Shown here: piece by piece, positions 3,974 to 63,797 of the stretch | How positions within the stretch are numbered: the stretch's first letter is position 1 | How the letters are laid out: each line of letters starts with the position of its first letter | Source: a virus | Length of the DNA stretch: 64,000 nt | Direction: 5' to 3' (one strand) | IMG/VR virus record: IMGVR_UViG_3300046008_000291 | Span: 1-64,000 of that record | Position numbers and translations under genes: made by a program | The notes under the pieces: model-generated | Database searches by the model: none | What the model was told of the DNA's origin: nothing | The model's input: the letters and a program-made list of their open reading frames with translations, nothing else

Positions 3974-5431
3974 TTACTTCCACTCCGTTTTTTCTACCGC
4001 ATAAGGATAGTTTGCTTCAGTATAAAATTTCTTTCTGACTGTAAGATGCCGCTTGGCAAACTTACAAGTTGATGTTACGTCCCAGATTTGGACGAAGTCC
4101 TTGTCTTCCGCTTTGCGAATGCCACGCCCGATACTCTGGATGACCCTGACAAAAGATTTACCAGGCTCGATAAGCACAAGATTAAAAATACGAGGAATGT
4201 TAAGACCAACAGCCGCAACACCATAAGTGGCAACAGCAACGAAGTTATCGCTGGTTGCAAACTCATCATAGCTTTCTTTACGGTCATCTGCTTTGGTTCC
4301 TCCACTAACAAACACAGCATTATTAATTTTTTCAATTAATGCTTTGCCTGGTGCAATACGATCAACTAACACAAGTGTATTACCTGTCTTACGTATTGTT
4401 TCTACTAGTTTACTTATGTAATCTAAACGTGCTTCAGTCTCTAATAGATAACGCAGTTCGCTTTGATAGTCTTTATATTCCACGTGGTCAATTAACTGTA
4501 AGATGTTCACATGACAGTTAGCAAGTACACCCTGGTCTTGTAATTCACTGGCACTTAACCGTCCAATAACCTCGCCTAATGAACATTTTAGGCTCATAAA
4601 TTCGTACATTTCCTTAGGTATTGTACCAGTTAATCCCCATCGAATTGGAATGTGTGCCATTACACCAGTAAGCAAGGTCTTAAGCGCATCTGCCTTGGCC
4701 ATGTGTACTTCGTCAACCATAACACAAACAACATCTTCTAAAAATTCCATTATAGTAATGTCAGCTTCGTGTGCTTTGGTGTTTTTAAGTAGTATGTTTA
4801 GACTTTGCCAAGTACAGATTGTGTGTTGATGTCCAAACTCCTTACGGTCACCAAAGTACACTCCTACATCTAGGCCTAGGTTAATATAGTCTGCTTCTGT
4901 TTGTGTTACTAGACTTTTGTTTGGTACAATTACTATAGTACGACCATACTGCTCACAGCTATAACTAAGTGCTGCAGTGATTAGGGTCTTACCTGCACCT
5001 GTGGCAATTTCCTGTAGACACTGCGGATTCTCAAGAAACTTGTTAATAATCTCAATTTGATAATCTCTGAGCACGACCGGTTGACCTGCAATTGTATGTT
5101 TAGCTGGCCAAACTTTATGTGCAAACGTAGCTTCTGTTACCTGCGCAAAATCAAACTGTGTACGATAGTCACGTAGATCTTCAAGTTCGATATTATAACC
5201 ACGTTCATCTATGTAGGGCAACATCTCGGCAAGCAAGTTAGTATATGTGCTACCGCCTAATTGAAAGTAAGCCACTTTGCCATCCCATCGACCAAGACGT
5301 ACACTTGGTAGATAACGTGCGCCTGGGATTTCATACTTAAACTTGTTGGCTAGATACTTGCGTTCTGTAAGTTCAAGTCCATCTAACTTACAGTTCACTT
5401 CATCTTTAATTATAATTTTACAGGTTGCCAT
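3974..5431 (-). CDS. uvsW: UvsW-type DNA/RNA helicase
   Basis: A superfamily 2 helicase of 485 residues, close to T4 UvsW (about 503). Motif I is ATGAGKT at 143-149. Motif II is DEVH within VMVDEVHMAK, motif III is the GLTGT region and motif VI is QSIGRGIRK. An N-terminal domain of about 100 residues precedes the helicase core, as in UvsW. UvsW remodels recombination intermediates, unwinds R-loops and helps switch replication from origin-dependent to recombination-dependent mode. The start overlaps the stop of the next upstream gene by one base. Confidence 0.93.
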   Translation of the reverse strand: MATCKIIIKDEVNCKLDGLELTERKYLANKFKYEIPGARYLPSVRLGRWDGKVAYFQLGGSTYTNLLAEMLPYIDERGYNIELEDLRDYRTQFDFAQVTEATFAHKVWPAKHTIAGQPVVLRDYQIEIINKFLENPQCLQEIATGAGKTLITAALSYSCEQYGRTIVIVPNKSLVTQTEADYINLGLDVGVYFGDRKEFGHQHTICTWQSLNILLKNTKAHEADITIMEFLEDVVCVMVDEVHMAKADALKTLLTGVMAHIPIRWGLTGTIPKEMYEFMSLKCSLGEVIGRLSASELQDQGVLANCHVNILQLIDHVEYKDYQSELRYLLETEARLDYISKLVETIRKTGNTLVLVDRIAPGKALIEKINNAVFVSGGTKADDRKESYDEFATSDNFVAVATYGVAAVGLNIPRIFNLVLIEPGKSFVRVIQSIGRGIRKAEDKDFVQIWDVTSTCKFAKRHLTVRKKFYTEANYPYAVEKTEWK

Positions 5432-6555
5432 TAATCGTTTTCTCTTAATTTGGTATTGGTGCAGTAGGCTATCTTTTCTGCTTGGTTAATCCATTCCATA
5501 CGTTTGCCGCCGTACATCATTTCCACAGTGGAGACCAACAATGGTATTGAGTAATTCCATGTTGCTGGTATCTTGTGCGCATATACTACTTTAACACAAT
5601 CTATATTGTAATCGCAAGTCTTTGTTTTACCACGATAGTCAAAACGCACTATTTCATCTTCATTAAATCTACTTAGATCTAAATCAATCGATGTCATTGT
5701 TGGATCGTATATACAAACTGGATAACGATTGGTTAGTTCAGCATACGAGAATAAAAATGATATTGCATCATCTGTCATTGGTAAATGTATATCACGACTG
5801 GAGCCAAATATATCCAGGAGTGCAGGACGAGTTAGCGTATCATCGTAGGTATATCCCAGCACACCAGAATTATCAATTAGTGTGACTCCGTTGTCTATAC
5901 CAAAGCCACCCAACTTAGTATTGATATATTCAACTAAACTATCAGCGGCGTTGGTAATCTCATAACCATCAGCAGTCTGCACTAGTTTAATTTCATACGG
6001 TCTAGCTTCACACTCCATAATTAAATTGAACAAGTTTTGTACTAGTGGATCAATTTCAAATTGATTTATCTCGCCCCAGGTTACTGCCCAATTTACATTA
6101 GATTCGGTGATGGCCAAATACCAAACCTTCTCTTCTTGATTGTACTTCATACTACCTTGACTTATGTTTCGTTCTTCTTGTATGGATTTAATCATTGGTA
6201 GGTCGTAGGGAAAGCGTACACCAATGCGTTCATCATCTAACCAAATTTGTTTTGATCTGTTTACCACACGTACTGGTTTACGAAACTGTGGATTCTCTGC
6301 CGGAGCAACATCAATACCATAGCGAGCAAACTGCTTACGATATTTAAGTACTAATCGCACAGCAAGATCTGCTTGTCTATCTGTTAAAGCGCCGCCCCAG
6401 TAGGTATGTGCGCTCATACTTTCTACAATTGTAATGTCATAACGTGCAAGATTAATAATAGGAGGTTCAGGCGGATTAACGATTACCAACGTACCAGGTG
6501 TATGTCCACCGAGTAGTTCTAAATAATCTTCAATATGTGTATACGCAACTGTCAT
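5431..6555 (-). CDS. Conserved protein coupled to uvsW, unknown
   Basis: A 374-residue protein ending exactly where uvsW begins, so the two are probably coupled. No helicase motifs are visible, but segments such as GVRFPYDLPMIKSIQ and KYNQEEKVWYLAI resemble the accessory N-terminal (HARP-like) domains of SNF2-type remodellers, suggesting a DNA-handling partner. The ATG at 6553-6555 lies six bases after a TATACT -10 box, so translation is likely leaderless. The partner role is inferred only from position and weak similarity. Confidence 0.5.
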   Translation of the reverse strand: MTVAYTHIEDYLELLGGHTPGTLVIVNPPEPPIINLARYDITIVESMSAHTYWGGALTDRQADLAVRLVLKYRKQFARYGIDVAPAENPQFRKPVRVVNRSKQIWLDDERIGVRFPYDLPMIKSIQEERNISQGSMKYNQEEKVWYLAITESNVNWAVTWGEINQFEIDPLVQNLFNLIMECEARPYEIKLVQTADGYEITNAADSLVEYINTKLGGFGIDNGVTLIDNSGVLGYTYDDTLTRPALLDIFGSSRDIHLPMTDDAISFLFSYAELTNRYPVCIYDPTMTSIDLDLSRFNEDEIVRFDYRGKTKTCDYNIDCVKVVYAHKIPATWNYSIPLLVSTVEMMYGGKRMEWINQAEKIAYCTNTKLREND

Positions 6556-6593: not shown

Positions 6594-6628
6594 AAAAAAA
6601 AGCCCAATGTAATCAAACATTGAGCTTT
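6594..6628 (-). terminator. Rho-independent terminator after formate-tetrahydrofolate ligase
   Basis: On the minus strand a 12-bp stem (AAAGCTCAATGT paired to ACATTGGGCTTT, one G-U) with a six-base loop, followed by a run of T. It closes the AAA ATPase to ligase operon. Confidence 0.8.
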
Positions 6629-6674: not shown

Positions 6675-8294
6675 CTAATCCAGTCCTTCTATACGACCAT
6701 CCTTACCAATTGAGATCTTTTCTGCGTTTGGCTGTGCTGGCAAGCCTGGCATGGTCATAATGTTACCGCAGACTGCTACGATGTATTCTGCACCTGTACA
6801 CAGTTTTAACTCACGTACTGTTAAGACATGTTTAGATGTTGCGGCTAATTTGTTAGCGGGATCATCACTGAAACTACTTTGTGTTTTAGCAATACAAACG
6901 GGATAGTGTCCGTAGTCCTTTTGTAGTTCATATAAGTGTGCTGATACTTTAGCATCCATATTAATTCCCGATGCATTATATATCCGTGTAGCTACTTTGT
7001 TTAGTTTAGATAATAATGTATCTTCATCTCGATATGTCAACTCCATTGCCTGAACACTTTGATCAATTGCCATAATAACTTCGTGTGCCAATTCCTCTGC
7101 TCCATCGCCGCCTTCGGCAAAGTGTGTACACTCTACTGCTTCAATGTCAAATGTGTTACTGATGTAGGCTATTAAGTCTGAAATCTCTTGATCAGTGTCA
7201 TCTTTAAAACGATTAATAGCAACTACGCAAGGCAGGTTATACTGCGTCTTAATGTTAGTAATATGCCTATCTAAGTTGGTATAATTACCTTGATACTTAA
7301 TTGCTCTGATAGTGGCTACCAGCACTACTACATCAGGCCGTAGACCGCTTTTACGGCACTTAATGTTAATAAACTTCTCAGCACCTAGGTCAGCACCAAA
7401 GCCTGCTTCTGTTACCACATAGTCAGCTAACTTCATTGCCAGCTTAGTAGCAATAACACTGTTACATCCATGTGCTATGTTGGCAAATGGACCACCGTGT
7501 ACAAGTGCAGGAGTACCTTCTAAGGTCTGCACTAGGTTAGGTTTAACTGCGTCTTTTAATAGTGCAGCCATAGCACCATGTGCTTTTAAGTCCTTAGCTG
7601 TAACAGGTTTATTATCACGAGTATAACCTATGGTAATCTTTCCCAACCGACGCTTTAGGTCTTTAAAGTCTTCTGCTAGACATAGGATAGCCATTACTTC
7701 ACTTGCTACCACAATGTCAAATCCTTCTTCACGGGTAACACTATTATGCGCACCTAGCCCCACCACAGTACTGCGCAGGCTACGGTCATTCATTTCACTT
7801 ACACGACGCCAAACGATCTTGTTAGTGTCTAAGTTTAATTCATTGCCCCAATGTAAGTGATTGTCTATCATTGAGCTTAGTAAATTATGAGCACAGGCAA
7901 TAGCGTGGAAGTCACCTGTAAAGTGAAGATTAATATCTTCCATTGGTGCTACTTGTGCATAGCCGCCACCTGTGGCTCCACCTTTCATACCAAACACTGG
8001 ACCTAAGGCAGGTTCACGTAAACATACAATTGACTTGTAGTTTAACTTACGTAAGCCATCTGCTAGGCCAATAGTTGTGGTAGTTTTACCTTCACCAGCA
8101 GGTGTTGGTGTTATCGCTGTTACTAAGATTAACCTGCTATCTCGACCAGGACGGTCAGCAAGTGCTTCTATGTTTAGTTTGGCTTTCTTACTGCCGTATA
8201 CTTCCAATTGTTCATTCCATACATCGATGGAATTAGCAACGTCGGTAATAGATAGTAAGTTGGCCGATTGGTTGATTTGAATGTCTGTTTTCAT
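6675..8294 (-). CDS. fhs: Formate-tetrahydrofolate ligase
   Basis: A 539-residue, apparently full-length formate-tetrahydrofolate ligase (bacterial forms are about 555). It joins formate to tetrahydrofolate using ATP to give 10-formyl-THF for purine and formyl-Met-tRNA synthesis. The P-loop is [11 protein letters not shown] (about 62-72), followed by the signature [20 protein letters not shown] (94-113) and HFTGDFHAI (124-132). Further family blocks ([22 protein letters not shown]) are intact, with no frameshift. It is the last gene of an early operon ending at a strong terminator. This is a host-derived metabolic gene. It could raise 10-formyl-THF for dNTP and initiator Met-tRNA supply, or divert formate in a methylotroph; those roles are inferred. 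Confidence 0.95.
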
Positions 8295-8641: not shown

Positions 8642-8773
8642 TTAGTCTTTACCGCTAGCTAAAAGTATTACGGTAAGTAGGAACCACCAAGCACTCCAAC
8701 CCTGCCAACCTACTAGGTAAACGGTACCTCCTAGTAGGATTAAATTATACATCATTGCCAACAACAGCTTCAT
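8642..8773 (-). CDS. Small membrane peptide 3 (43 aa)
   Basis: ATG at 8771-8773 overlaps the stop codon of the AAA ATPase by one base (TAATG), so it is translationally coupled. Two hydrophobic stretches (about 2-20 and 26-38) with WQGWSAWW between them suggest a membrane hairpin. Unknown function; together with the two following peptides it makes a run of three short membrane proteins in one operon. Confidence 0.55.
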   Translation of the reverse strand: MKLLLAMMYNLILLGGTVYLVGWQGWSAWWFLLTVILLASGKD

Positions 8774-9795
8774 TATGCTGTCTTCATACAAGTTGTACGT
8801 GCCATGCTTTCCCAAGTGTTAGGAAAACTCTTGTATAGCTGTGCTACTTTAATTGCCATACGCAAACTCATCTCACGCATTTTGTTTTTGTTAGCATCTA
8901 AAAAATCAATAATAACATCTTGTCCAACTTCGCTAATGCCCAAGTCACTAAACATCTCACCTTGTTTAGCAATCTGTCTAATACGCAATACTTTATCACG
9001 CATAGTGTCTAATGTCAAATCTAAATAGTGACAACGTGACTGTAATGCTTCTAAGTGATCCTTCAAACGTTGTGACTTAACTGCATCAAATTTTAAGTTA
9101 GTAATAAAAATTACACTACCTTTAAATTGGAAACTGTTAGGAATGTCTTCTTGTTTTAGCACACGAGATTCTGACAACCAGCTAATCTTACGTGACTTGC
9201 CGCTGTCTAACGCACCTTTAAGCAAGTTCAAACTAACATCATCAAATAGTATGCTATCACAGTCATCAAATACAATAACGCTGTTAGCATCACTGTACTC
9301 GTACAATACCTTGTACAAACCAATAGCACTAGCACTACCTTTAACCACAGTGTGTTTAGGTTTTGCATTAGCAATGTTTTGGAATAAGTTTGCTTTGTCA
9401 ATTTGTGCTTCCACAGTATAGCTTTTACCCACACCCGGAGGTCCACTTACAATCATCGCACGTATATCACCGTTCAATACTGCCTTAGTCATTTCGTCAA
9501 GCATTTCAAAACGCAAGCCAATATCAGCAATACGTTCTTCGTCTGACTGTTTGCTAGTTGCGTCTACTTCTTTAGCAGTTACTACACCAGTATACTCGTC
9601 AGCATGTACAAACTCAATGTCTGTAGGACTTTCTACTAATACTCTAATTTTATCTTTACCAAACTGCCCTGTACCATCAACAGTAATAAAGCCGCCTTTA
9701 GCACCAACAGTATAATGTTTTACAAGTGGAAATACTTCGTTTTTAATTTCAGTGTTTCTATAACTACCATTTTTAATTTTAACAAAACCAGTCAT
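8773..9795 (-). CDS. AAA-family ATPase
   Basis: A 340-residue AAA ATPase. Walker A is GPPGVGKS at about 119-126 and Walker B is VIVFDDCD at about 174-181; a sensor-1 like Asn lies in IFITNLKF. The N-terminal 90 residues are beta-rich and may bind substrate. Similar ATPases occur in T4-like marine phages without known function; MoxR-like or clamp-loader-like remodelling is possible. It has its own ribosome-binding site (AGGAGCAATAA before ATG) and a near-perfect early promoter at 9831-9859, and heads the operon that ends with the folate ligase. Confidence 0.75.
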   Translation of the reverse strand: MTGFVKIKNGSYRNTEIKNEVFPLVKHYTVGAKGGFITVDGTGQFGKDKIRVLVESPTDIEFVHADEYTGVVTAKEVDATSKQSDEERIADIGLRFEMLDEMTKAVLNGDIRAMIVSGPPGVGKSYTVEAQIDKANLFQNIANAKPKHTVVKGSASAIGLYKVLYEYSDANSVIVFDDCDSILFDDVSLNLLKGALDSGKSRKISWLSESRVLKQEDIPNSFQFKGSVIFITNLKFDAVKSQRLKDHLEALQSRCHYLDLTLDTMRDKVLRIRQIAKQGEMFSDLGISEVGQDVIIDFLDANKNKMREMSLRMAIKVAQLYKSFPNTWESMARTTCMKTA

Positions 9796-9830: not shown

Positions 9831-9859
9831 ATTATAGCACCTCTGCGTGTGCTTGTCAA
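9831..9859 (-). promoter_or_regulatory. Sigma-70 early promoter, AAA ATPase to fhs operon
   Basis: Perfect TTGACA (9854-9859), 17-base spacer, perfect TATAAT (9831-9836), about 35 bases ahead of the ATPase start. Confidence 0.85.
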
Positions 9860-9864
9860 GTACT

Positions 9865-10152
9865 TTAGTAGTTAAGTTCGCGGAAGTCTGAATATGGAAT
9901 TGTGTAGTTGTTAGCACGAATAATTGTGACTAACTCTTTGGCCGCCGCGTTGTAAAAACGAGCGAATTGACGAACTTGTAGACCGCTACGTTCACCGTCG
10001 CAGGTTAAGTTCTCTGGGCTTAGATCATTGTCTAAACTATCATACAAATTTTGACAATCACGTTCTGATAAGTTATTAACATCGTAGGTTACATTATTGA
10101 AAATACGTGCCCAAGCATTTTTTTGTTCAATGTATTGTGCTAGATTTTTCAT
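9865..10152 (-). CDS. Small early protein, unknown (95 aa)
   Basis: A 95-residue helical protein starting MKNLAQYIEQKNAW with a GGAG ribosome-binding site. It contains a CDGERSGLQVRQFARFY segment but no recognised motif. It has a dedicated consensus promoter, so it is probably an early protein acting on the host. Function unknown. Confidence 0.6.
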   Translation of the reverse strand: MKNLAQYIEQKNAWARIFNNVTYDVNNLSERDCQNLYDSLDNDLSPENLTCDGERSGLQVRQFARFYNAAAKELVTIIRANNYTIPYSDFRELNY

Positions 10153-10184
10153 TAGTTGCTCCGTGTTGTTAGTGTATGTATAGC

Positions 10185-10213
10185 ATTATACAGTCATTTA
10201 ACCAAAATGTCAA
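10185..10213 (-). promoter_or_regulatory. Sigma-70 early promoter
   Basis: TTGACA (10208-10213), 17-base spacer, TATAAT (10185-10190); drives the 95-residue gene. Confidence 0.85.
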
Positions 10214-10218
10214 CTACT

Positions 10219-10419
10219 TTATTGGGCTAATTTTGTGAAAATACTTTGTTGGAGTTCTGCTACTTCATCGTTTGGTACGTAGAAGTCTGTAGTTGGGTCG
10301 TAATACTCGCCTGCAGGTGCATCGTAGTACAATACGCGACCGTTTGGATAATGGAATGGGCCTTCTAAGCCCTTGCGTGGGCCATATTCTTTGCCATTTT
10401 GAAAAACTGTGTAGGCCAT
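10219..10419 (-). CDS. Small early protein, unknown (66 aa)
   Basis: A 66-residue protein rich in Tyr, Gly and Pro (FQNGKEYGPRKGLEGPFHYP), probably a compact beta fold, with an acidic helix at the C-terminus. It has its own promoter and a ribosome-binding site (AAGGAATAGACAA before ATG). Function unknown. Confidence 0.6.
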   Translation of the reverse strand: MAYTVFQNGKEYGPRKGLEGPFHYPNGRVLYYDAPAGEYYDPTTDFYVPNDEVAELQQSIFTKLAQ

Positions 10420-10450
10420 TTGTCTATTCCTTATTAACTAAACAAATGCT

Positions 10451-10479
10451 ATTATACGTTCTTTTGGGTTAGTTGTCAA
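10451..10479 (-). promoter_or_regulatory. Sigma-70 early promoter
   Basis: TTGACA (10474-10479), 17-base spacer, TATAAT (10451-10456); about 30 bases before the 66-residue gene. Confidence 0.85.
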
Positions 10480-10486
10480 CCGTTAT

Positions 10487-10615
10487 TTAATCACAGTCAG
10501 AGAACGCTTCTATCAAACGTTTGTTACATTCTGTGTCGCCTGGTTGACAGACAGTTGATGGAATAGTTGGTTCTTGTGGTGTAGTTGGTACGGTTGGTTC
10601 TGTAGTAGTCGACAT
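10487..10615 (-). CDS. Small Thr/Pro-rich peptide (42 aa)
   Basis: ATG at 10613-10615 is chosen because AAGGGA lies at a good distance upstream. A longer in-frame version would begin inside or right beside the promoter. The product is a Thr-Pro repeat (TTTEPTVPTTPQEPTIP) followed by a short tail with three Cys. Low complexity suggests an unstructured linker-like peptide. Function unknown. Confidence 0.5.
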   Translation of the reverse strand: MSTTTEPTVPTTPQEPTIPSTVCQPGDTECNKRLIEAFSDCD

Positions 10616-11638: not shown

Positions 11639-12472
11639 CTACTCTAATCCCAAAATCGCCGGATGTTGTCGTAGTAAGCTATTTCTATAATGGTTCCAAA
11701 TGTTGTACAATTCATCACTATTATGTTCATTTATCAGTACTTTTAGGCTAGATAATGCTCGTAAATCGCCCAAATATGGCTTATATTTTTCCGGCACAGT
11801 TTCAGACGTATATTGGTAGCCAAGTGCAGAAATCTGCTCTAAATCAATAAATGTAGGAATTAATCTTTCAATCAAAAATGTAAAGTTTGGTAATGTTTTA
11901 TCATGTGCATAGTTGCTCAACCCTGCACCAAATACCTGATGTTTAAACACAGGATCCTTTTCTGCTTCTGTAAATAGTCGACGTGAAAACGTCATAAATC
12001 TTTCCCAGAATGATCTGCTACCAACAATATAATTTGCAAACATTGTGCAGTTGCGATCAAGTACCATGCTTTTTACATCAACATCTTCATAACCAAGTTT
12101 AGTTAAAAAGCTATTGCCAATTGTAGATATGTTAGGATGATATAGATCACCTTGTTCCCAGCTATTAGCAAATACTGCTTCGTTAACTATACATGGATTA
12201 ACAAAATAAACATCAGCGCCGGGATTACTTGTAATAAAGTCAATAAATTGTTGACCTGACAGGTTAGTTTTTTCTTTGAACTTCCAAGACACAAATCCCC
12301 AGTAGTCTAATCCCTGTGCCAGAATGTTTTCGTATTCTCTATCCCACACGTCCCACTCACGTAATTCTGGACGAGGGTTCGCTGTATTATCCAATGGAGT
12401 AAACGCAGGATCGCAGTGCTGTTTTAATTCTGGCTTAAAGTATATTTGAAAAATTTTCATGTTTGTCGACAT
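11639..12472 (-). CDS. Glycan-cassette protein, unknown (277 aa)
   Basis: Last gene of the glycan cassette. The protein is soluble, with DVWDREYENILAQGLDYWGFVSWKF near the N-terminus and a central GSRSFWERFMTFSRRLF block. It resembles uncharacterised proteins in capsule and surface-glycan loci. I see no clear nucleotide-sugar DxD site, so glycosyltransferase is only a possibility. It overlaps the upstream gene by 38 bases; a second ATG four codons in is an alternative start. Confidence 0.5.
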   Translation of the reverse strand: MSTNMKIFQIYFKPELKQHCDPAFTPLDNTANPRPELREWDVWDREYENILAQGLDYWGFVSWKFKEKTNLSGQQFIDFITSNPGADVYFVNPCIVNEAVFANSWEQGDLYHPNISTIGNSFLTKLGYEDVDVKSMVLDRNCTMFANYIVGSRSFWERFMTFSRRLFTEAEKDPVFKHQVFGAGLSNYAHDKTLPNFTFLIERLIPTFIDLEQISALGYQYTSETVPEKYKPYLGDLRALSSLKVLINEHNSDELYNIWNHYRNSLLRQHPAILGLE

Positions 12473-13220
12473 AATATGCTAGTTCCTTAGATATATCTCT
12501 TGCTCGAGGAACAAATTCGTTCTCAAGTCTATAGTTTAATGTTTCTTTGTTTGTAATGTGATGATATCCCCAACCGCGTTGACGGTCTAATAGAGGTATT
12601 TGTGTTTGTATTTGCAGTTTACGTGCAATACCATCTTCATCAAACGGACACCATCCATAATATAATATAGCCAACTTATCTGTAGTATAGAAGTTGTAGT
12701 GACGTCCGGGAGCCATACAATCACCAGTGGTTGATATTGGATAAGGCACGTGTCCTTTGTGTAGTCGTCTGGCACGACGTTCTAAGAATGCCTGATTGCT
12801 GTCGCTGAATACAAAGCCATGATGTTTTTGTTTGTACAAGGGCAGGTCGTGTGTAACAGTCTGCTCTCTATCGGTGTCTACCATAAAGATACTTGGTACT
12901 AGTATATGTTCAGGACCACGGTCATCCATTGCTGTGTAATCACCAATTAGCTGTTCTGTTACATTAAGACAAATCTTCCAACCTTCAATGCCAGCTTCAA
13001 TGTCGTTGACTTCTACATCAATTAAGTCTGCTTGAAAGTTTGGGTTACGACTAGTTACAATATCCCATGTAGGACAGATCTCTCGAATGATGTCACGACT
13101 ACGATCAGTGCTGTGATAGTCAATCATCACGCCGTGGTCAAATATCTGCTTATGATGATTAAGGAACCACGGTAATAGATATTCTTCATTGTAAAAATGA
13201 CAAAGTAAGGTCTTACGCAT
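12435..13220 (-). CDS. Family 2-like glycosyltransferase
   Basis: A 261-residue protein with a GT2/GT92-like beginning: LLCHFYNEEYLLPWFLNHH, then DYHSTDRSRDIIRE, the nucleotide-binding pattern of GT-A enzymes that transfer sugars from NDP-sugars. FMVDTDRE (around 112-119) is a DxD candidate for metal binding. It is cotranscribed with sugar-modifying enzymes and starts at the last base of the methyltransferase gene. Donor and acceptor unknown. Confidence 0.7.
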   Translation of the reverse strand: MRKTLLCHFYNEEYLLPWFLNHHKQIFDHGVMIDYHSTDRSRDIIREICPTWDIVTSRNPNFQADLIDVEVNDIEAGIEGWKICLNVTEQLIGDYTAMDDRGPEHILVPSIFMVDTDREQTVTHDLPLYKQKHHGFVFSDSNQAFLERRARRLHKGHVPYPISTTGDCMAPGRHYNFYTTDKLAILYYGWCPFDEDGIARKLQIQTQIPLLDRQRGWGYHHITNKETLNYRLENEFVPRARDISKELAYYVDKHENFSNIL

Positions 13221-14434
13221 TATTCTACACTGATAGTTGGGAAGTAACGAACGAACACATCTTCTGTATTATCACGTTTAGTTTTAATATTGCGTTTAAT
13301 TTCATTAAAGAAATTCCAAGCCAATGGAACAAATGCTACGTTAAGATCTGCGCACTCATCTAACATATCAATTGACACCACAGGAATATGCATGCCCGGA
13401 CTGAAAAGACCCTGCTTCATCGGATTGTCATCAATAATAAAGTCTAATGTAATGTTGCCAAAGTTAAGTAATGTCATACCTTTGGCTGCCGCGCCATAAC
13501 CAGCAATAACAAATCCTTCTGCACGATAGGCCACAATAGTATCTTTAAGATCTTGTACTACTTGCTGTGCTCGACGAGCATACTCTACATAAGTCTGTGG
13601 ATCTTGTAAACCTGCGGCACGTTCTTCTGCTAGTACCTGTTCAACTTTGCCATCTGTACTAGGATGTTTACTAAACACAAACACATAGCTGTTACCATGG
13701 ATAGGTGTTTTAGTAATATCAATTAAGTTTAAGCCTGCACGTTTTGCCAGTTCATTCATGCTGTTGGCACAGAAGAAACTTAGGTGCTCGTGGTAGATAG
13801 TATCAAACTCATTGTTCTTAACCATGTCTGCTTGACTAGTTTGAATGAACAATACGCTACTATCGTGCATGATTTCTTTACATTGCTGTAAGAACTCTAA
13901 TGGATAGCTGTTATGTGCAAATACATTCTGCGCATTGATGATATCAATGTTTTTGGCTTTCAATCCTTCTACATGAGCCGCTGTAAAGTAATCTAAGATA
14001 ACTTCGTGATTCTTACTGCTAATTGGATGTAGGTTTGTAGCTGGGTCAACACCATAAGTTGTTAAGCCAACCTTTTTAAATGAATCTAACTGTGTGCCAT
14101 CATTACACGCAATGTCTAATACACTGGTTGGCTTCTCCGAAAAGAATTCAAATGAGTAGTTAGCAAACCAATCAAAGTAATCTTTAAGTGTTTGGCTAGT
14201 GCCGCTTACATACAAATAGTTACGGAATAATAAGTCAGGATCAACTGCATGACTTAACTGCAAGTGACTACATTCTGTACAACGATTAAGTTTTAACGGA
14301 AATATTAATTCTGGCGTTTCTGGTGATTCTAAGAAACTATTGGCCATTGGTTGTTCACCAAGGTCTAAGGTTGGTTCTAAATGCTTACTGCCACAGCACA
14401 GGCATTCAGTTAATTCTTTCGCGTTATCGGTCAT
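13220..14434 (-). CDS. NDP-hexose C-methyltransferase-like enzyme
   Basis: A 404-residue protein with the architecture of sugar C-methyltransferases (TylCIII/NovU type). It has an N-terminal zinc-binding CLCCGSKHL and CTEC (four Cys), a SAM domain with VLDIACNDGTQLDSF (about 104-118), and a C-terminal domain with GYGAAAKGMTLLNF, which is typical of the family. It would add a methyl group to a keto sugar from the dehydratase encoded two genes upstream. It overlaps the epimerase gene by 11 bases. Confidence 0.8.
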   Translation of the reverse strand: MTDNAKELTECLCCGSKHLEPTLDLGEQPMANSFLESPETPELIFPLKLNRCTECSHLQLSHAVDPDLLFRNYLYVSGTSQTLKDYFDWFANYSFEFFSEKPTSVLDIACNDGTQLDSFKKVGLTTYGVDPATNLHPISSKNHEVILDYFTAAHVEGLKAKNIDIINAQNVFAHNSYPLEFLQQCKEIMHDSSVLFIQTSQADMVKNNEFDTIYHEHLSFFCANSMNELAKRAGLNLIDITKTPIHGNSYVFVFSKHPSTDGKVEQVLAEERAAGLQDPQTYVEYARRAQQVVQDLKDTIVAYRAEGFVIAGYGAAAKGMTLLNFGNITLDFIIDDNPMKQGLFSPGMHIPVVSIDMLDECADLNVAFVPLAWNFFNEIKRNIKTKRDNTEDVFVRYFPTISVE

Positions 14435-15350
14435 ACTCTTTTTCCCATTGATATGTCATGTAATTGTCGCGGCGTTCAACGTGTGATTCCGCATATCTTT
14501 TTTTTAGACTAGTAACTATTGTACTAGGTGTTTCAGTAAATGTAAAGTCAAATGTCTTCTGAAATAATGTAGTATCTAGTCCAAAGTCATATGCGTTAGC
14601 AGTAACTCCTCGGTCAACTACAGGCACGGCTAGTTCCTCGGCTACAGTGGTAGCAATATATTCAACGGTAGCGTTGAAACTAGCCATGTTGTAGATACCC
14701 GCTTGTGGACGTTCAATACAGTGTGCTATACCTCGACATAGATCTTCAATGCCTAATAGGGCACGATTGATATGCTTGTTTGTTACAGTAATTTTACCTT
14801 GTGTGTTAGCCGCATTATACATAGCATTGATCATAACATCGGCACGTAGGTTAGGTGCCCAACCGTTGACTGTACCAAAGCGTAGACCCATTATGGTATG
14901 TCCGTTACTGATAGCAATCTTAGCTTCTAAGTCTAAAGTATATTTGGTAATGTCGTAATTGTTTACAGGGATAAACTGTCGATTTTCTTCAGTAAACAAT
15001 TGCCCTGGCAGACTGTTACCGTATACGCTTGCTGAACTAGCGTAGATCAACGGAATATTTTTATGTGACAATTTGTCTATTAGATCAGTAAAATTAGTAA
15101 CATTGTTTAACCAAGGACTTTTTATATCGCCGACACAACTAGCCACACTGCTATGCCCTGCTAGTAATACCACAGCGTCAAACGTTGACATGTAGTCTAC
15201 GGTTAATTTATGATAGTCAGTTCTATTAGACGTTTCATCATAGTTGTACCAGCAACAGTCTACACTTTCTACAGTGTAGGTCTGTGCCAATACTTGCCTT
15301 AGTCTAGATCCAACATAACCATTACCGCCAATGATTAAGATGTTTTTCAT
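14424..15350 (-). CDS. NAD-dependent sugar epimerase/dehydratase
   Basis: An extended short-chain dehydrogenase of 308 residues. The nucleotide-binding GGNGYVGSRL is at about residues 8-17. The catalytic Tyr-Lys pair is in NNYDITKYTLD (YxxxK), and Ser is in ASSASVYGNS. Likely a nucleotide-sugar epimerase or reductase acting after the 4,6-dehydratase in the same cassette. Confidence 0.8.
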   Translation of the reverse strand: MKNILIIGGNGYVGSRLRQVLAQTYTVESVDCCWYNYDETSNRTDYHKLTVDYMSTFDAVVLLAGHSSVASCVGDIKSPWLNNVTNFTDLIDKLSHKNIPLIYASSASVYGNSLPGQLFTEENRQFIPVNNYDITKYTLDLEAKIAISNGHTIMGLRFGTVNGWAPNLRADVMINAMYNAANTQGKITVTNKHINRALLGIEDLCRGIAHCIERPQAGIYNMASFNATVEYIATTVAEELAVPVVDRGVTANAYDFGLDTTLFQKTFDFTFTETPSTIVTSLKKRYAESHVERRDNYMTYQWEKEYDR

Positions 15351-16090
15351 TAGTCAATAATCATCATGCCATTTGGAGCAATGTTGCCTTGTAGGCCAAC
15401 TGTGTCCAATTCAACTAACTTGGCTGATGGCACAAACTTTGCCATACTGTGTTCAACATCAATATATTTTCCTTGATTAAAGGTGGCAAACATATTTTGT
15501 AGAATATTTTGAAACAGTTGAATAGTATCAGCAAACAAACTAGGAGTAAACGACCATAGGCGAGTTTGTAACATAGTAGTTACACCGGTATCAGCTGAGT
15601 TAATCCAGCTGGCCTGTGCTCGTTTAAACACATATTTGTCAGCAGTAACATCATTATCAAATTTAGTAATATCAAACTTATCAGTTAATTGATAACGTCC
15701 ACTAAGTTTAAATATTCTCGACGAGTTTGCAATAACTTCCATTATCTCAGGATTAGATGACATGTAAGTAAGCGCCTTGTGCATACCAACACATTCCATT
15801 GAATTTTTACCAATGTCATAATTTGTAATATTGTTATGGAAATGTTGTATGTCTAGGTCGTCGCTGTTATCGATATAATAATCAACTTGATCAATTAGTT
15901 CATTTAATTCTACACTGTCATCTGCCTGTACCGCAACTGTGCTATTATCAATTAAAATAATAGTACAATCTGGTATGTATTTCTTGGCACTTTTAACTGT
16001 ATCTAATGTTTGTTGTATACGTTGTTTAGCATCGTATATACCATAGTTAGTATATACTGCTGATGTAATTAAAACTGTTTGTTTACTCAT
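15350..16090 (-). CDS. Glycan-cassette protein, glycosyltransferase-like (246 aa)
   Basis: A 246-residue protein. It starts with a Rossmann-like strand (TVLITSAVYTNYG), followed by a helix and a DCTIILIDNST strand, reminiscent of GT-A transferases. A later IFKLSGRYQLTDKFD segment is seen in uncharacterised surface-glycan proteins. No firm family assignment. It shares a base with the epimerase and overlaps the methyltransferase by 4 bases. Confidence 0.5.
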   Translation of the reverse strand: MSKQTVLITSAVYTNYGIYDAKQRIQQTLDTVKSAKKYIPDCTIILIDNSTVAVQADDSVELNELIDQVDYYIDNSDDLDIQHFHNNITNYDIGKNSMECVGMHKALTYMSSNPEIMEVIANSSRIFKLSGRYQLTDKFDITKFDNDVTADKYVFKRAQASWINSADTGVTTMLQTRLWSFTPSLFADTIQLFQNILQNMFATFNQGKYIDVEHSMAKFVPSAKLVELDTVGLQGNIAPNGMMIID

Positions 16091-16758
16091 ATTGGTGTAC
16101 TCGTGACTAATTCAGTTGGGCGTTTGCCATCTTTGTCTAATACTACAATACTATCATAGAAATGTTGTCCTGAAAGATCTTTATAAAAGTCGGCAAACAT
16201 CATATTATCTGGGTGACGATCTAAATCTTTGTAGTAATTAACATTCATAGTGTCGGTAATTTGTTTAGCATAGTTTAAAAACGTGCTAGGTACTCGAATA
16301 CCGCCACTATACTCTGGCCAATAGTTAGTGTGTGTATCTTCACACAGATAAACACCGCCGGGAGTAATACTCGACCAAACCTTTTGTAAGGTTAGGATTT
16401 GATGACTGCATACATGACTACCATCGTCAATGAACACATCAATGTTTGGGTACTCAGTTAAGAACTTGTCCCAAAATGCCGGATCTGCCTGGCTACCGTT
16501 TACCTGTATACAACCAGGAGTCTGGTGCTCTAATTTGAAAGAATTCGGATCAATGTCAATACCAACAATAGTAGCACCTTCACCAAAATACTTTTTCCAC
16601 ATTTCAGCACTGCCACCGCGGCAAATACCAACTTCAACTACTACTGGCTTCTTGCCAACAAACTTAGCAAAGTGTTGTTCATAGATATCAAAGTAGTGGC
16701 TCCACTTACCGCAGTGTAGATCCAAATTATCAAATATTTCTCTTAGCATCGTAACCAT
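16087..16758 (-). CDS. SAM-dependent O-methyltransferase (macrocin type)
   Basis: A 223-residue class I methyltransferase. The SAM motif is VVVEVGICRGGSAEMW (about 35-50), the acidic second strand is IVGIDIDP, and a metal-binding pair is in DVFIDDGSHVCSHQ, as in TylF/macrocin O-methyltransferases and cephalosporin-hydroxylase-like proteins. It probably methylates a sugar hydroxyl. It overlaps the dehydratase gene by 16 bases. Confidence 0.75.
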   Translation of the reverse strand: MVTMLREIFDNLDLHCGKWSHYFDIYEQHFAKFVGKKPVVVEVGICRGGSAEMWKKYFGEGATIVGIDIDPNSFKLEHQTPGCIQVNGSQADPAFWDKFLTEYPNIDVFIDDGSHVCSHQILTLQKVWSSITPGGVYLCEDTHTNYWPEYSGGIRVPSTFLNYAKQITDTMNVNYYKDLDRHPDNMMFADFYKDLSGQHFYDSIVVLDKDGKRPTELVTSTPI

Positions 16759-17771
16759 CTCTCATTGTCAAGTGTCCATTGTACTACTTCACCGATACGT
16801 TCTGTTAGGCTAACCTTAGGTTCCCAACCTAATTCTCGCATGTAGTCACCACTTAGAGCATAACGTAGGTCATGGCCTGGGCGACTACTATGGAAATCAA
16901 CCATTTCGTATTTTAATTCTTTACCTTGTGCATCAGCAATGATCTGTGCTAGTTGTAGGTTGTTGATTTCTTGTTTACCTACTAGGTTGAACTTAGGACA
17001 TTTAGCATCACCGTAGTCTGGTGCTAGTTTAGTACTGTCTAAGCCTAACAAGAAGAACATGGCATCTGCTACATCTGCCGCATGAATGTAGAAACGACTG
17101 CCCGGAATTGTACGTGTGCTGTCACTGTGAATAGTAATAGCATCGCCATCGTTTACCTTACGAATACACATTGGAATAAACTTCTCTGGGTGTTGGCGTT
17201 GACCAAACACATTCATTGTATGTGTAATGTAGATAGGCATCTTGTAGGTATTTTCAAACGCTACAGCTAATTCTTCACCACCAGCTTTAGTAGCTGAGTA
17301 TGGATTGCTTGAGTTGTAACGATCACGTTCACCGTAGTTTACGCCAACTGGTGCTGGACCAAATACTTCATCTGTTGAGAAGTAGATAAAACGTTCTAGA
17401 TTAGGTAGTTTACGTGCAAACTCTAAGATGTGACCTGTACCTACAACGTTGTCCCAGACAAATTCCATTGGGAACTCAATTGATCGATCAACGTGTGATC
17501 CTGCGGCTAAATGTAGTACATAGTTTACATCACCAATGTCACGAGCAACCATTGGATTTAATTCTGCACGTAAGTCGTGGAATACAACCTTAACACGTTT
17601 CTTAGTTTCTGCATCAAAGTTTGCCATCATATCACTCAAGCGGTTTAAGTTGCCGCTAAAGTCTAGACGATCTAAACTAACGATATTCCAATCTGTATTT
17701 CTAAGTAAGTTTTCGATAACGTGGTGTGCGATGAATCCTGCACCACCTGTTACCAGCACGGTTTTTGACAT
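16743..17771 (-). CDS. rmlB: dTDP-glucose 4,6-dehydratase (RmlB-like)
   Basis: A 342-residue extended SDR with GGAGFIAHHV (8-17), the dehydratase block YFSTDEVFGPAP and the catalytic NPYSATKAGGEEL (YxxxK), plus the MNVFGQRQHPEKFIP substrate region. It converts dTDP-glucose to the 4-keto-6-deoxy form, the entry point for deoxysugars. First gene of the seven-gene glycan cassette, with an AAGGAA ribosome-binding site and a late promoter about 40 bases upstream. No RmlA, RmlC or RmlD is present here, so the precursor is presumably host-made. Confidence 0.85.
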   Translation of the reverse strand: MSKTVLVTGGAGFIAHHVIENLLRNTDWNIVSLDRLDFSGNLNRLSDMMANFDAETKKRVKVVFHDLRAELNPMVARDIGDVNYVLHLAAGSHVDRSIEFPMEFVWDNVVGTGHILEFARKLPNLERFIYFSTDEVFGPAPVGVNYGERDRYNSSNPYSATKAGGEELAVAFENTYKMPIYITHTMNVFGQRQHPEKFIPMCIRKVNDGDAITIHSDSTRTIPGSRFYIHAADVADAMFFLLGLDSTKLAPDYGDAKCPKFNLVGKQEINNLQLAQIIADAQGKELKYEMVDFHSSRPGHDLRYALSGDYMRELGWEPKVSLTERIGEVVQWTLDNERWLRC

Positions 17772-17811
17772 TGATGTGTTCCTTGTTAATTGAATGTTAC
17801 TATTATATCAG

Positions 17812-17819
17812 TATTTATT
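17812..17819 (-). promoter_or_regulatory. T4-type late promoter of the glycan cassette
   Basis: AATAAATA on the minus strand about 40 bases before rmlB. No sigma-70 -35 accompanies the nearby TATAAT-like sequence, so the cassette looks late-expressed. Confidence 0.55.
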
Positions 17820-17841
17820 TTAGCCAATTACGCAACTAAAA

Positions 17842-17997
17842 TTATGCTGGTTGTGATACTTTGCCTTCTACATATTCACGAATGAATTTAACTGCTTTGC
17901 GACTTGTGTCAAATACAAACTCTTTGGCATCTTCTTCTGTATTTAAAATTACAATAAAACCGTTTGCTACTTTACGAATTTCAATTGATTCAAACAT
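17842..17997 (-). CDS. Small early protein (51 aa), unknown
   Basis: ATG at 17995-17997 is preferred because GGAGTACACATT precedes it. The upstream in-frame extension would run through the promoter. The product is a compact alternating fold (FESIEIRKVANGFIVIL), acidic and soluble. Function unknown. Confidence 0.55.
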   Translation of the reverse strand: MFESIEIRKVANGFIVILNTEEDAKEFVFDTSRKAVKFIREYVEGKVSQPA

Positions 17998-18039
17998 AAT
18001 GTGTACTCCAGTTAATTTAAGATAAACTCTTATTTTACT

Positions 18040-18069
18040 ATTATAACATTGTTTTGATACGTTAGTCAA
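18040..18069 (-). promoter_or_regulatory. Sigma-70 promoter
   Basis: TTGACT (18064-18069), 18-base spacer, TATAAT (18040-18045), ahead of the 51-residue gene. Confidence 0.7.
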
Positions 18070-18073
18070 GAGA

Positions 18074-18114
18074 AAAGGCAGAAAAACTTGCCAAAATTAA
18101 CAAGTTTCTGCCTT
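18074..18114 (-). terminator. Rho-independent terminator
   Basis: AAGGCAGAAACTTG pairs with CAAGTTTTTCTGCCTT (two-base bulge) around a ten-base AT-rich loop, ending in TTTTCTC on the minus strand. It follows the 66-residue gene and ends just before the next promoter. Confidence 0.7.
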
Positions 18115-18125
18115 ATTTGATTCAA

Positions 18126-18326
18126 TTAACTAGGTTGACGTGCTTGACCACCGTTAGCTGGTGTTGAGCGTAACTCGGAGAACTTTTTGTTTTTTGATTC
18201 CATATATGATTGCTGTGCGCTGACCATTGCTTTCAAATAGATCCTGCGTTCGGTTTTATCTAAGATTGTTGCTAGTGTTAATTTAACCATCTTACCTAAT
18301 TTGAAACCTGCGTTTGTTTTAGCCAT
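18126..18326 (-). CDS. Small basic protein (66 aa), unknown
   Basis: A 66-residue Lys-rich helical protein (FKLGKMVKLTLATILDK) with a disordered C-terminus. A GGAG-type site (AAGGAGCAATACAC before ATG) supports the start. Possibly nucleic-acid binding because of its charge; function unknown. Confidence 0.6.
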   Translation of the reverse strand: MAKTNAGFKLGKMVKLTLATILDKTERRIYLKAMVSAQQSYMESKNKKFSELRSTPANGGQARQPS

Positions 18327-18338
18327 GTGTATTGCTCC

Positions 18339-18578
18339 TTATCGTGATTCAACTTTGAGATTTAGTACAAAATTTTCTACTAACAGTTTAATAATTGTTG
18401 ATACTATAATTGCTTCACCGGATTCCGAATCAGCGTGTTGCTTATATAGTTCGTATGCTTGACTGCCCACCAGTTGATATATACTATCTTTGTTCAAAGG
18501 TAAGTTATCCCAATCTATAGCATCAGTCGTTTCTACTTCTTTTGCTAGTTCTATAATTTGTTCAAGTGTGTAGTTCAT
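18339..18578 (-). CDS. Small acidic protein (79 aa), unknown
   Basis: A 79-residue helical acidic protein (LEQIIELAKEVETTDAIDW). Its ATG at 18576-18578 is six bases from a TATACT -10 box, and there is no ribosome-binding site, so it should be translated from a leaderless message. Function unknown. Confidence 0.6.
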   Translation of the reverse strand: MNYTLEQIIELAKEVETTDAIDWDNLPLNKDSIYQLVGSQAYELYKQHADSESGEAIIVSTIIKLLVENFVLNLKVESR

Positions 18579-18659: not shown

Positions 18660-19871
18660 TTAGAAGAATAAGATAGCACCTGCTGATACTGAACGTGATT
18701 TACCTTCTGCACCGTTTTGTGCTTCTGATTTAACGTCTGAGTATTCAGCTACTAAATTAACTGATTTAGTAAGTGCGTGATAAGCACCAAATGTCCACAT
18801 TTCGTTTTTCGAAACTAATGCGGTTGCTGTTTCACCACTGTTACGATCTAGTTTACTTTGACCATAACTTACACCAAGTTTAGTTGCTGTTGGCAATGTG
18901 TATGTACCTTGTACATAACCACCGTTTGAATCACGACGTCGACCTGTAGTGTCAAAACCATCAGCTAATTGTAGTGTGCGGCCAATACCTTTACCATCAA
19001 AGTAGTAAGCAGTTAAACCGTATGGACCAGCAGCTAAGTTTGTACCAACGTCCCAAGCATAAGCGCGGTCATCTGCTGCAGAGCCAGTTACACCTTCAAC
19101 TTTTTGTGAAATAGCACTTGACCAAACTTTAGCAGCAATGGGACCTGCTAATGAGTAAGATACTTTACCTTCAAAAGCTGGTTGTGCACCACCACGGCCT
19201 GTTGAAGTTGCTGAAGCAGCTTGTACACCTGCTGTTACTGCATTTAAGTCAGCTGTTTGAGCATTCCATGCTTGCGTTACACCAGCAGTGAAGCTTAAGC
19301 CGTTGAAGTTTGGAGATGTGTAAGAAATTTGTGATTTCCAGTCTGCATACATATAGCCAGTACCAATACGACCTAATGTAGTTGTGTTACCAGCTAGTGC
19401 ACCAGCACCAGAACCAACACCTAACAATGTCATGTCGTTTAAGATAGCATCACTAGCGAAAATACCTAGGTCTTTACCTAGTTTTACACTACCCCATGAT
19501 TTATCACCGATAGTCAAGAATGCTTGACGATTTTCTTGGTTAGCACCTTGATCACCAGCTGATGTTGTTGAAGCACCTGGATTAATTGCAATAGTGAAAC
19601 CAATGTCTAAATCATTTTGACGTGACTTACCAGAAACTGATAATACGTTTGGTAATAAGCCAGTTGTAATATTTGATTCATTGCGTTGACCATTGGCATT
19701 AGGGCCGCCAAGACCACCAGCAACTGCACTACCTGTGCCACGTGTGTTTGTATAGTATGCGTTTACAACGCCGCCGATATCTAATGTCCAATCACCTGCT
19801 GGAATTTGAATACCTGCATTTGCTGTAGAGTACATACTTGCTAATAATGTTGCTAATAAAATTTTCTTCAT
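18660..19871 (-). CDS. Outer-membrane general porin (phage-borne)
   Basis: A 403-residue Gram-negative porin. ATG at 19869-19871 follows AAGGAGAAGTATCGTA and gives a clean signal peptide, MKKILLATLLASMYSTANA. The mature N-terminus, GIQIPAGDWTLDIGGVVNAYY, resembles betaproteobacterial porins. The rest alternates Tyr/Phe/Gly-rich strands and ends in a strand with C-terminal Phe (SVSAGAILFF), the signal for insertion by the BAM complex. Length suits a 16-strand trimeric porin. It may alter nutrient uptake, replace a receptor or exclude rival phages; these are inferences. It has both early and late promoters. Confidence 0.9.
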   Translation of the reverse strand: MKKILLATLLASMYSTANAGIQIPAGDWTLDIGGVVNAYYTNTRGTGSAVAGGLGGPNANGQRNESNITTGLLPNVLSVSGKSRQNDLDIGFTIAINPGASTTSAGDQGANQENRQAFLTIGDKSWGSVKLGKDLGIFASDAILNDMTLLGVGSGAGALAGNTTTLGRIGTGYMYADWKSQISYTSPNFNGLSFTAGVTQAWNAQTADLNAVTAGVQAASATSTGRGGAQPAFEGKVSYSLAGPIAAKVWSSAISQKVEGVTGSAADDRAYAWDVGTNLAAGPYGLTAYYFDGKGIGRTLQLADGFDTTGRRRDSNGGYVQGTYTLPTATKLGVSYGQSKLDRNSGETATALVSKNEMWTFGAYHALTKSVNLVAEYSDVKSEAQNGAEGKSRSVSAGAILFF

Positions 19872-19918
19872 TACGATACTTCTCCTTTTAATGGATAACA
19901 CTAATATGTTATACTATC

Positions 19919-23911: not shown

Positions 23912-23940
23912 ATTATACTATCATTCTACCAAAATGTCAA
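23912..23940 (-). promoter_or_regulatory. Sigma-70 early promoter with adjacent start codon
   Basis: TTGACA (23935-23940), 17-base spacer, TATAAT (23912-23917). It begins directly after the tRNA-His gene, and the start codon follows the -10 by six bases. Confidence 0.85.
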
Positions 23941-44181: not shown

Positions 44182-45744
44182 TTAGAACATTATGAATGGC
44201 ATTGGCTCGATAAAATCATCAAGTGTATCGCGCATTGCATTGTCAAGTGTTGCATCATATGTTTGTAGTAGCATTGCCATACGTACTATTAACACCAGGC
44301 TCATCACCAAGTCATCTGTTTCGCCGGGCTTAGCCGCAAAACTTGATCCAGTTGCTACAAATGTTTTTAATTCTGATATTAGGTTCTTACTAGCAATAGT
44401 CATACGTTTGGTTTCTATTAGATTTTTTAACTTAGAACAAGCTGATATTTTGCTTTTGTTTGTAGTATTAAATCCTTTACGATAGCGTCTGCCAGAGCCC
44501 ATAGCCTTAGGTTCATTTAAGAATGTTCCTTTGATATTTTCCTCGCCCATTTCGGCTACTGTTATTAGTGCCGCTTCACCTATTGTGTTGTTTTCCATAC
44601 TGTAGTAAATGTTGTTTACTGGTATTGTTTCTGCCAGATAGCGTGTGATTTCTCGTAATATACCGATTTGTTGCTGTATTGGTGTGCGATTGTGTTGCCA
44701 TTCTCCTACTTGCATAAAGCTAGGCAATTCAAATATTTGTATTGCCGCAGGATCACCACCTGTACCAAGACTAGGATCCAATGCTACAAGATAAGTGTTT
44801 GTTGGGCTAGGTTTTTTATACCAACGTATTTGACCTTGTCGTTCAATTGGGTCAATTCCGTCCATTTCAATTAAATGTCCTGGATTAATTAATGTTTCGT
44901 CCCAGATAATAAATTCACAATCCATTTCACGACGGAAACGTTCGTCACCTAATTGACTACGCTGTTCTGCGGCCCATTTATCATCTCTATCCGGATGTTC
45001 GCGCCAGAAGCTACGGAATGATTTAAACCCATTAACTCCTAATTCAGTGGCATTGCCAAATTCGTCGATGCATTTGTTGGCTCCTTTCCATAAGGTAGCA
45101 AATTGGTCTTCATCTGAATTAGGTGTTGATGTGATAATACATTTACCACCTGTTGCTAGTGTAGGACTAATAGAAGTCCAGAATTCACGGCCAATGGTAC
45201 TGCGCACAAACGCAAACTCATCGCAATATAATAATGAAATAGACATACCCCGGCCGGTATTTTCTGTTGTAGTTGATGAGTTAATTCTACTGCCATTTTC
45301 AAAGTCTATACTACCTTTGTTGTAGCTTGTGGCACCGGCACGTATAAAGTCGGGACACAGCTCGTATGCATAACGTATACGAGCCATAATTTCTTGTGAA
45401 CCTGTGTATTTGTGTGCGGCAATTAGGATAGTACTATCTGGTACAAACATAGCGTACCATAGCAAGTAGCCTGCAGCAGATGTTGATTTGCCTGTTTGTC
45501 GCGGCATTAATGATATGCTAAAACGATAGTTGTGATATGTTTCAATTAAACGTTTTTGATAATCAAATGGTTGGTACAACATACGACCTTTAGTAGGATG
45601 CTGTATATAGAAATAGTTACTCATAAAGTATTCTGGCCCGGTAATAGGGTCAGCACAACGAGCAAACTCTAAGATTTGCTGTTCGGTAAAGGTTTCTGTT
45701 TGGTGCGCACGTTTTACAAGTACGCCTTCAAGTGATTTAGCCAT
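44182..45744 (-). CDS. 17: Terminase large subunit (gp17)
   Basis: A 520-residue packaging motor. Residues 81-88 PRQTGKST are the Walker A-like motif and LLYCDEFAFV is Walker B with the catalytic Glu. ITSTPN is the coupling motif. The nuclease domain has VALDPSLGTGGDPAA with its metal-binding Asp. The length is shorter than T4 gp17 (610) but normal for marine relatives. It pumps DNA into proheads and cuts the concatemer. An ATAAGTA late-like box is five bases before the ATG. Confidence 0.95.
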   Translation of the reverse strand: MAKSLEGVLVKRAHQTETFTEQQILEFARCADPITGPEYFMSNYFYIQHPTKGRMLYQPFDYQKRLIETYHNYRFSISLMPRQTGKSTSAAGYLLWYAMFVPDSTILIAAHKYTGSQEIMARIRYAYELCPDFIRAGATSYNKGSIDFENGSRINSSTTTENTGRGMSISLLYCDEFAFVRSTIGREFWTSISPTLATGGKCIITSTPNSDEDQFATLWKGANKCIDEFGNATELGVNGFKSFRSFWREHPDRDDKWAAEQRSQLGDERFRREMDCEFIIWDETLINPGHLIEMDGIDPIERQGQIRWYKKPSPTNTYLVALDPSLGTGGDPAAIQIFELPSFMQVGEWQHNRTPIQQQIGILREITRYLAETIPVNNIYYSMENNTIGEAALITVAEMGEENIKGTFLNEPKAMGSGRRYRKGFNTTNKSKISACSKLKNLIETKRMTIASKNLISELKTFVATGSSFAAKPGETDDLVMSLVLIVRMAMLLQTYDATLDNAMRDTLDDFIEPMPFIMF

Positions 45745-63768: not shown

Positions 63769-63797
63769 TTGACATTTATCAGTTAGTGTAGTATAAT
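63769..63797 (+). promoter_or_regulatory. Consensus sigma-70 promoter of the Nudix gene
   Basis: Perfect TTGACA (63769-63774), 17-base spacer and perfect TATAAT (63792-63797), starting right after the gp15 stop codon. Seven bases separate the -10 from the ATG at 63805. Confidence 0.9.

Follow-up and report, generated by a model that had tools for sequence, protein, structure and literature searches.

Formate-tetrahydrofolate ligase (Fhs, also termed FTHFS or FtfL) ties formate to the synthesis of purines, formylmethionine (fMet) and thymidylate, and in methylotrophic bacteria it is placed where the routes to energy and to biomass diverge. Formate is among the ordinary C1 intermediates of these bacteria, and the Fhs reaction is reversible. 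A phage-borne fhs gene is not without precedent: public complete genomes of the Prevotella Lak megaphages (MK250016 and relatives) carry a full-length Fhs. In MK250016 the gene is found at record positions 228395-230104 (L038 20001-21710), and a FolD-type protein is encoded at 6989-7489. The Lak megaphage papers that we examined do not mention Fhs, which seems to have gone unremarked in these phages, and no description of a phage-encoded Fhs was found in the open-access literature searched; this is not proof of novelty. Finally, the putative Methylophilaceae phages VP_139 and VP_266 from Lake Baikal harbour methanol dehydrogenase and PQQ genes, and the accessible portion of the paper describing them reports no Fhs (PMC7678222).

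Here we analyse an fhs gene within a window of 64,000 nucleotides, i.e., positions 1 to 64,000 of the IMG/VR virus record IMGVR_UViG_3300046008_000291. Judged from the sequence, this gene probably encodes a working, ATP-dependent Fhs that is kept as an auxiliary metabolic gene by a jumbo phage lineage related to Pseudomonas phage PA5oct, and that would raise the level of 10-formyl-THF for the synthesis of purines, fMet and dTMP. The features of the locus are compiled in Table 1.

Table 1. Features of the fhs locus and of other genes in the window
Feature	Position	Strand	Remarks
Fhs, intact, 539 aa	6675..8294	-	Pfam, NCBIfam, motifs, model
AAA+ ATPase (phrog_1250)	8773..9795	-	Upstream of fhs, codirectional; conserved neighbour of the fhs slot
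374-aa protein without assigned family	5431..6555	-	Flanks the fhs slot opposite the AAA gene; conserved
DNA helicase (phrog_16 type)	3974..5431	-	Conserved neighbour
Exact sigma-70-type promoter, TTGACA-17-TATAAT, TG before -10	9831..9859	-	First perfect promoter ahead of the AAA gene and fhs
Second exact promoter, farther upstream of fhs	10185..10213	-	
Terminator-like stem and T-run	6599..6628	-	Directly 3' of fhs; position suggestive
Methylophilaceae-type outer-membrane porin (Porin_4), Gram-negative	18660..19901	-	Host clue
S-adenosylhomocysteine hydrolase, internal deletion, 225 aa	20935..21612	-	Viral relatives 427-430 aa
Terminase large subunit	44182..45744	-	55% identity to the nearest isolates, Pseudomonas jumbo phages of the PA5oct type

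The gene is located on the minus strand, which corrects the initial annotation, and forms a full-length frame with an ATG start, present once in the whole virus record (177,658 bases); an E. coli genome included as a control gave no Fhs match. Residues 2-538 of the protein align to positions 1-555 of the 556 positions of the Pfam profile PF01268 (FTHFS) with a score of 773.2 bits (cut-off 27), and the NCBIfam equivalog NF010030 is matched with 787.1 bits (cut-off 652). The P-loop [46 protein letters not shown] and [14 protein letters not shown] were all found in the window protein. In an alignment of 35 phage and bacterial sequences the family blocks mostly occupy invariant or near-invariant columns, and G66 E67 G68 K69, R92 E93, K103 G104 G105, D127, H265-N277 and T294-G303 are unchanged throughout. 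The enzyme had been described as intact, with all family blocks and the ATP P-loop retained, and the profile scores and conserved blocks bear this out. An AlphaFold2 model (pLDDT 82, pTM 0.87) yields TM scores of 0.89-0.92 to solved Fhs structures; since bacterial Fhs were part of the input alignment, the model confirms the fold and gives no homology evidence independent of sequence.

The phage protein departs from its bacterial homologues in a segment around residues 326-346, which comprises 21 residues versus 38 in 80 of 81 bacterial sequences and 43 in the remaining one. As these 81 homologues were picked largely for their closeness to the phage Fhs, the short loop is absent from the bacteria sampled rather than from bacteria at large. 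Furthermore, a tryptophan near-invariant in bacteria (position 392) is replaced by phenylalanine in 13 of 16 phage copies and by tyrosine in one, while two copies retain it; aromaticity is thus kept at a position that we take to be the folate-site residue Trp412 of the Moorella enzyme. Because of Phe-392 and a loop 17 residues shorter, the kinetics of the phage Fhs may differ.

The best cellular matches, among the 80 listed, stem from betaproteobacteria and reach approximately 61% identity. In a tree with Methylophilales and other bacteria, which had been proposed as a check for contamination, the 16 window-type phage proteins form a virus-only clade with a support of 1.0 and a long stem, and this argues against a contaminating bacterial gene. 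The clade nests within none of the sampled Methylophilaceae Fhs, and descent from one of these host genes was rejected. When more viral sequences were included, six of them (L208, L209, L211, L212, L214 and L218) emerged as sisters of the phage clade (support 0.988); the contig of L214 (identical to L131) carries other phage genes. All 22 viral Fhs, i.e., the 16 clade members and the six sisters, share a shortened segment of 21 or 27 residues, and the segment is also short in the viral proteins L206 and L207, where the shortening was apparently independent. The short-loop viral clade offers enzymologists a ready comparison set.

Searching viral databases for homologues, as had also been suggested, yielded at least 30 IMG/VR loci from 26 metagenome numbers with an Fhs 73-100% identical over the matched part. 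Every copy of the window-type clade that was checked is an open frame, and dN/dS values of around 0.06-0.15, with synonymous distances reaching saturation, indicate that the gene is maintained by purifying selection. Nearly all relatives share the order AAA ATPase, Fhs, 374-aa protein and helicase, and the same junctions recur in about 22 contigs. More distant contigs, retrieved in a separate search by the neighbouring helicase, keep the AAA and 374-aa genes without Fhs, and the two genes are separated by 136 bp to 4.8 kb. The Fhs-less sister contigs and the variable gap identify the site as a cargo slot and Fhs as a non-core gene. In a 259-kb relative, G010 (terminase large subunit 60%, Fhs 77% identity), the gene resides at another place, among small genes.

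A broad pattern scan of 2.9 million IMG/VR contigs revealed at least 51 viral Fhs loci, some of them Lak-like and one carried by a 673-kb contig; this number is a lower bound set by the patterns used, and the viral status of each locus is presumed from IMG/VR. Moreover, PHROGs contains no family matching Fhs. The initial annotation did not know fhs as a common phage gene, and the missing PHROG family and the low count of loci agree with this. Divergent Fhs (43-47%) occur on the putative viral contigs L226 (673 kb), L216, L217, L219, L220, L225 and L227, and all of these except L226 have alanine at the near-invariant tryptophan position.

The record covers 177.7 kb of a jumbo myovirus genome. 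Its nearest isolates are Pseudomonas phages of the PA5oct type, with genomes of about 287 kb (terminase large subunit 55%, tail sheath 41% identity), and it is therefore probably incomplete. Marks of a large myovirus include genes for terminase, tail sheath, tail tube, SSB, RecA-like and helicase proteins as well as 26 tRNAs, and the terminase, tail sheath, tail tube and SSB genes share the window with fhs. The view of fhs as phage-borne is sustained by these structural genes and by the gene order fixed among relatives.

Other features of the genomes were noted in passing. Compared with the viral relatives examined whose frames are uncut by a contig end, the S-adenosylhomocysteine hydrolase of the window is missing an internal stretch of about 200 residues that comprises the NAD-binding domain; either the gene underwent an in-frame deletion or is decaying, or the assembly is in error. 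Sugar-nucleotide clusters encoding epimerases, aminotransferases and a C-methyltransferase, possibly for glycan modification, are found on the minus strand at 11639-17771 of the window and at 11121-16667 of L036. An alternative genetic code in L130 received no clear support.

The window contains 10 perfect TTGACA-N17-TATAAT promoters versus 0.15 expected, e.g., at 23912-23940 and 63769-63797 in addition to those upstream of fhs, which suggests that transcription of the window, including the tRNA cluster, is driven by the host RNA polymerase. Terminator-like sites in the fhs region are in total no more frequent than by chance. The gene had been assigned to an early phage operon: exact promoters do lie upstream, and we infer early expression from their host-type sequence. 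Folate or SAM riboswitches were also considered, and the Rfam matches in the window are tRNAs only.

The porin provides a clue to the host. It shares up to about 70% identity over its full length with Methylophilaceae porins; 141 of 187 genomes of this family have a match, versus none at an E-value of 1e-60 among 201 genomes from another betaproteobacterial family taken for comparison. Five other Fhs-phage contigs carry the porin at 92-95% identity and one at 55%. The host is thus likely a methylotroph of the Methylophilaceae, an assignment based mainly on this one gene; the link to methylotrophs, previously only suggested, gains independent support from it. An own Fhs above the cut-off is present in 131 of the 187 Methylophilaceae genomes, many of which may be incomplete. 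As most Methylophilaceae already possess the enzyme, a further copy from the phage would raise the dose or bring other regulation and no new reaction.

The Fhs record also encodes thymidylate synthase (ThyA), DHFR, dCMP deaminase and GTP cyclohydrolase I (FolE), an enzyme that releases one formate per GTP. Genes for QueD-like, QueE-like and FolE proteins are located at 9986-10537, 13450-14325 and 17711-18424 (minus strand) of L037. The distant phage G010 likewise encodes FolE (81%), ThyA, a DHFR homologue and a QueE-like protein (57%). FolD and QueC had no match in the window genome or in G010, both of which may be incomplete, and a peptide deformylase was looked for in the phage and not found. 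With QueD-like, QueE-like and FolE proteins but no QueC, the 7-deazaguanine route is only partial and may serve to modify nucleic acids.

From these components the following scheme can be envisaged. The phage fhs would be transcribed from host-type promoters, and its product would charge THF with formate at the expense of ATP to give 10-formyl-THF. Formate would derive from the C1 metabolism of the methylotroph host, with an extra contribution by the phage GTP cyclohydrolase I. The product could feed host purine synthesis and fMet-tRNA formation or, upon reduction by host FolD, yield methylene-THF for dTMP production by the phage thymidylate synthase; the DHF arising from ThyA would be recycled by the phage DHFR. 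We infer a diversion of one-carbon units into nucleotides: if the phage supplies its own Fhs, formate carbon could be redirected into virus DNA. A more far-reaching reading is tentative: the protein may belong to a virus-specific, short-loop Fhs family that has been passed among jumbo phages and provides the first reaction of a C1-folate module run by the phage (Fhs, ThyA and DHFR, with FolE giving formate), its kinetics altered for infection of methylotrophs. The loop appears to have been shortened more than once among viral Fhs, and in none of the 81 sampled bacterial ones.

As the window genome encodes FolE, QueD-like and QueE-like proteins, and G010 FolE and a QueE-like protein, Fhs might alternatively salvage the formate freed by FolE for each GTP, while the deazaguanine product is destined for DNA or RNA modification. 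Formate release by FolE is established biochemistry, but QueC was not found in either genome, the remaining Fhs contigs, which are short fragments, gave no FolE match, and the Lak phage genome searched has an Fhs but no FolE match. Since the formate from FolE is also probably small compared to the methylotroph formate flux, we regard this alternative as unlikely. Running Fhs in reverse, from 10-formyl-THF to ATP and formate, could provide energy or drain the host C1 pool; the reversibility of the family reaction would permit this, and a change in kinetics might be reflected in the short loop and Phe-392. Yet, the phage encodes ThyA, a consumer of C1-folate, and DHFR, which recycles DHF; both argue for C1 supply rather than drain and render a reverse role very unlikely.

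Whether Fhs is selected at all bears on a further alternative, i.e., a passenger or decaying cargo without a selected metabolic role. The slot between the AAA and 374-aa genes does vary in length and lacks Fhs in sister phages, as expected for such cargo. However, the open frames of all copies checked and a dN/dS of about 0.1 up to synonymous saturation already contradict this reading, and a second phage lineage, represented by G010, keeps Fhs at a different place; we deem it highly improbable. Some other "phage" records with Fhs (Listeria, Staphylococcus, Enterococcus and faecal contigs) lack annotation and could stem from bacteria; many such records were therefore not trusted as phage. For the present locus, the probability of an assembly chimera or of host contamination is negligible: identical junctions recur across contigs, the 30 loci are spread over 26 metagenome numbers, and cellular copies among the matches listed do not exceed approximately 61% identity. 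The virus-only clade rules out contamination, as do synteny and purifying selection, and the preferred reading remains a functional Fhs that supplies 10-formyl-THF.

Compared with described systems, the phage enzyme resembles bacterial Fhs/FTHFS/FtfL (PF01268, NF010030; structures 7c11, 5a4j and 1eg7) in its full-length homology, nucleotide-binding loop, family blocks and a TM score of about 0.9. It differs in an identity of at best about 61%, the segment of 21 versus 38 residues and the prevailing replacement of tryptophan by phenylalanine. The Lak megaphages likewise bear a full-length Fhs, yet their protein is only 43-45% identical to the window protein, has a loop of 36 residues (versus 38) and falls outside the window clade; MK250016 combines Fhs with a FolD-type protein, whereas FolD was not found in the window genome. 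The related phages PA5oct, MIJ3 and Paride share terminase (55%) and tail sheath (41%), and their records gave no match to Fhs. VP_139 and VP_266 resemble the Fhs phages in that they putatively infect methylotrophs and carry auxiliary metabolic genes for C1 metabolism, the SAM cycle and nucleotides, according to the accessible part of their description (PMC7678222), whereas the 13 Fhs-phage records searched yielded no PQQ-enzyme domain. Set against these systems, the locus appears to represent a known enzyme in an under-noticed setting: a real, selected phage Fhs of a virus-specific clade, with a plausible role in one-carbon supply.
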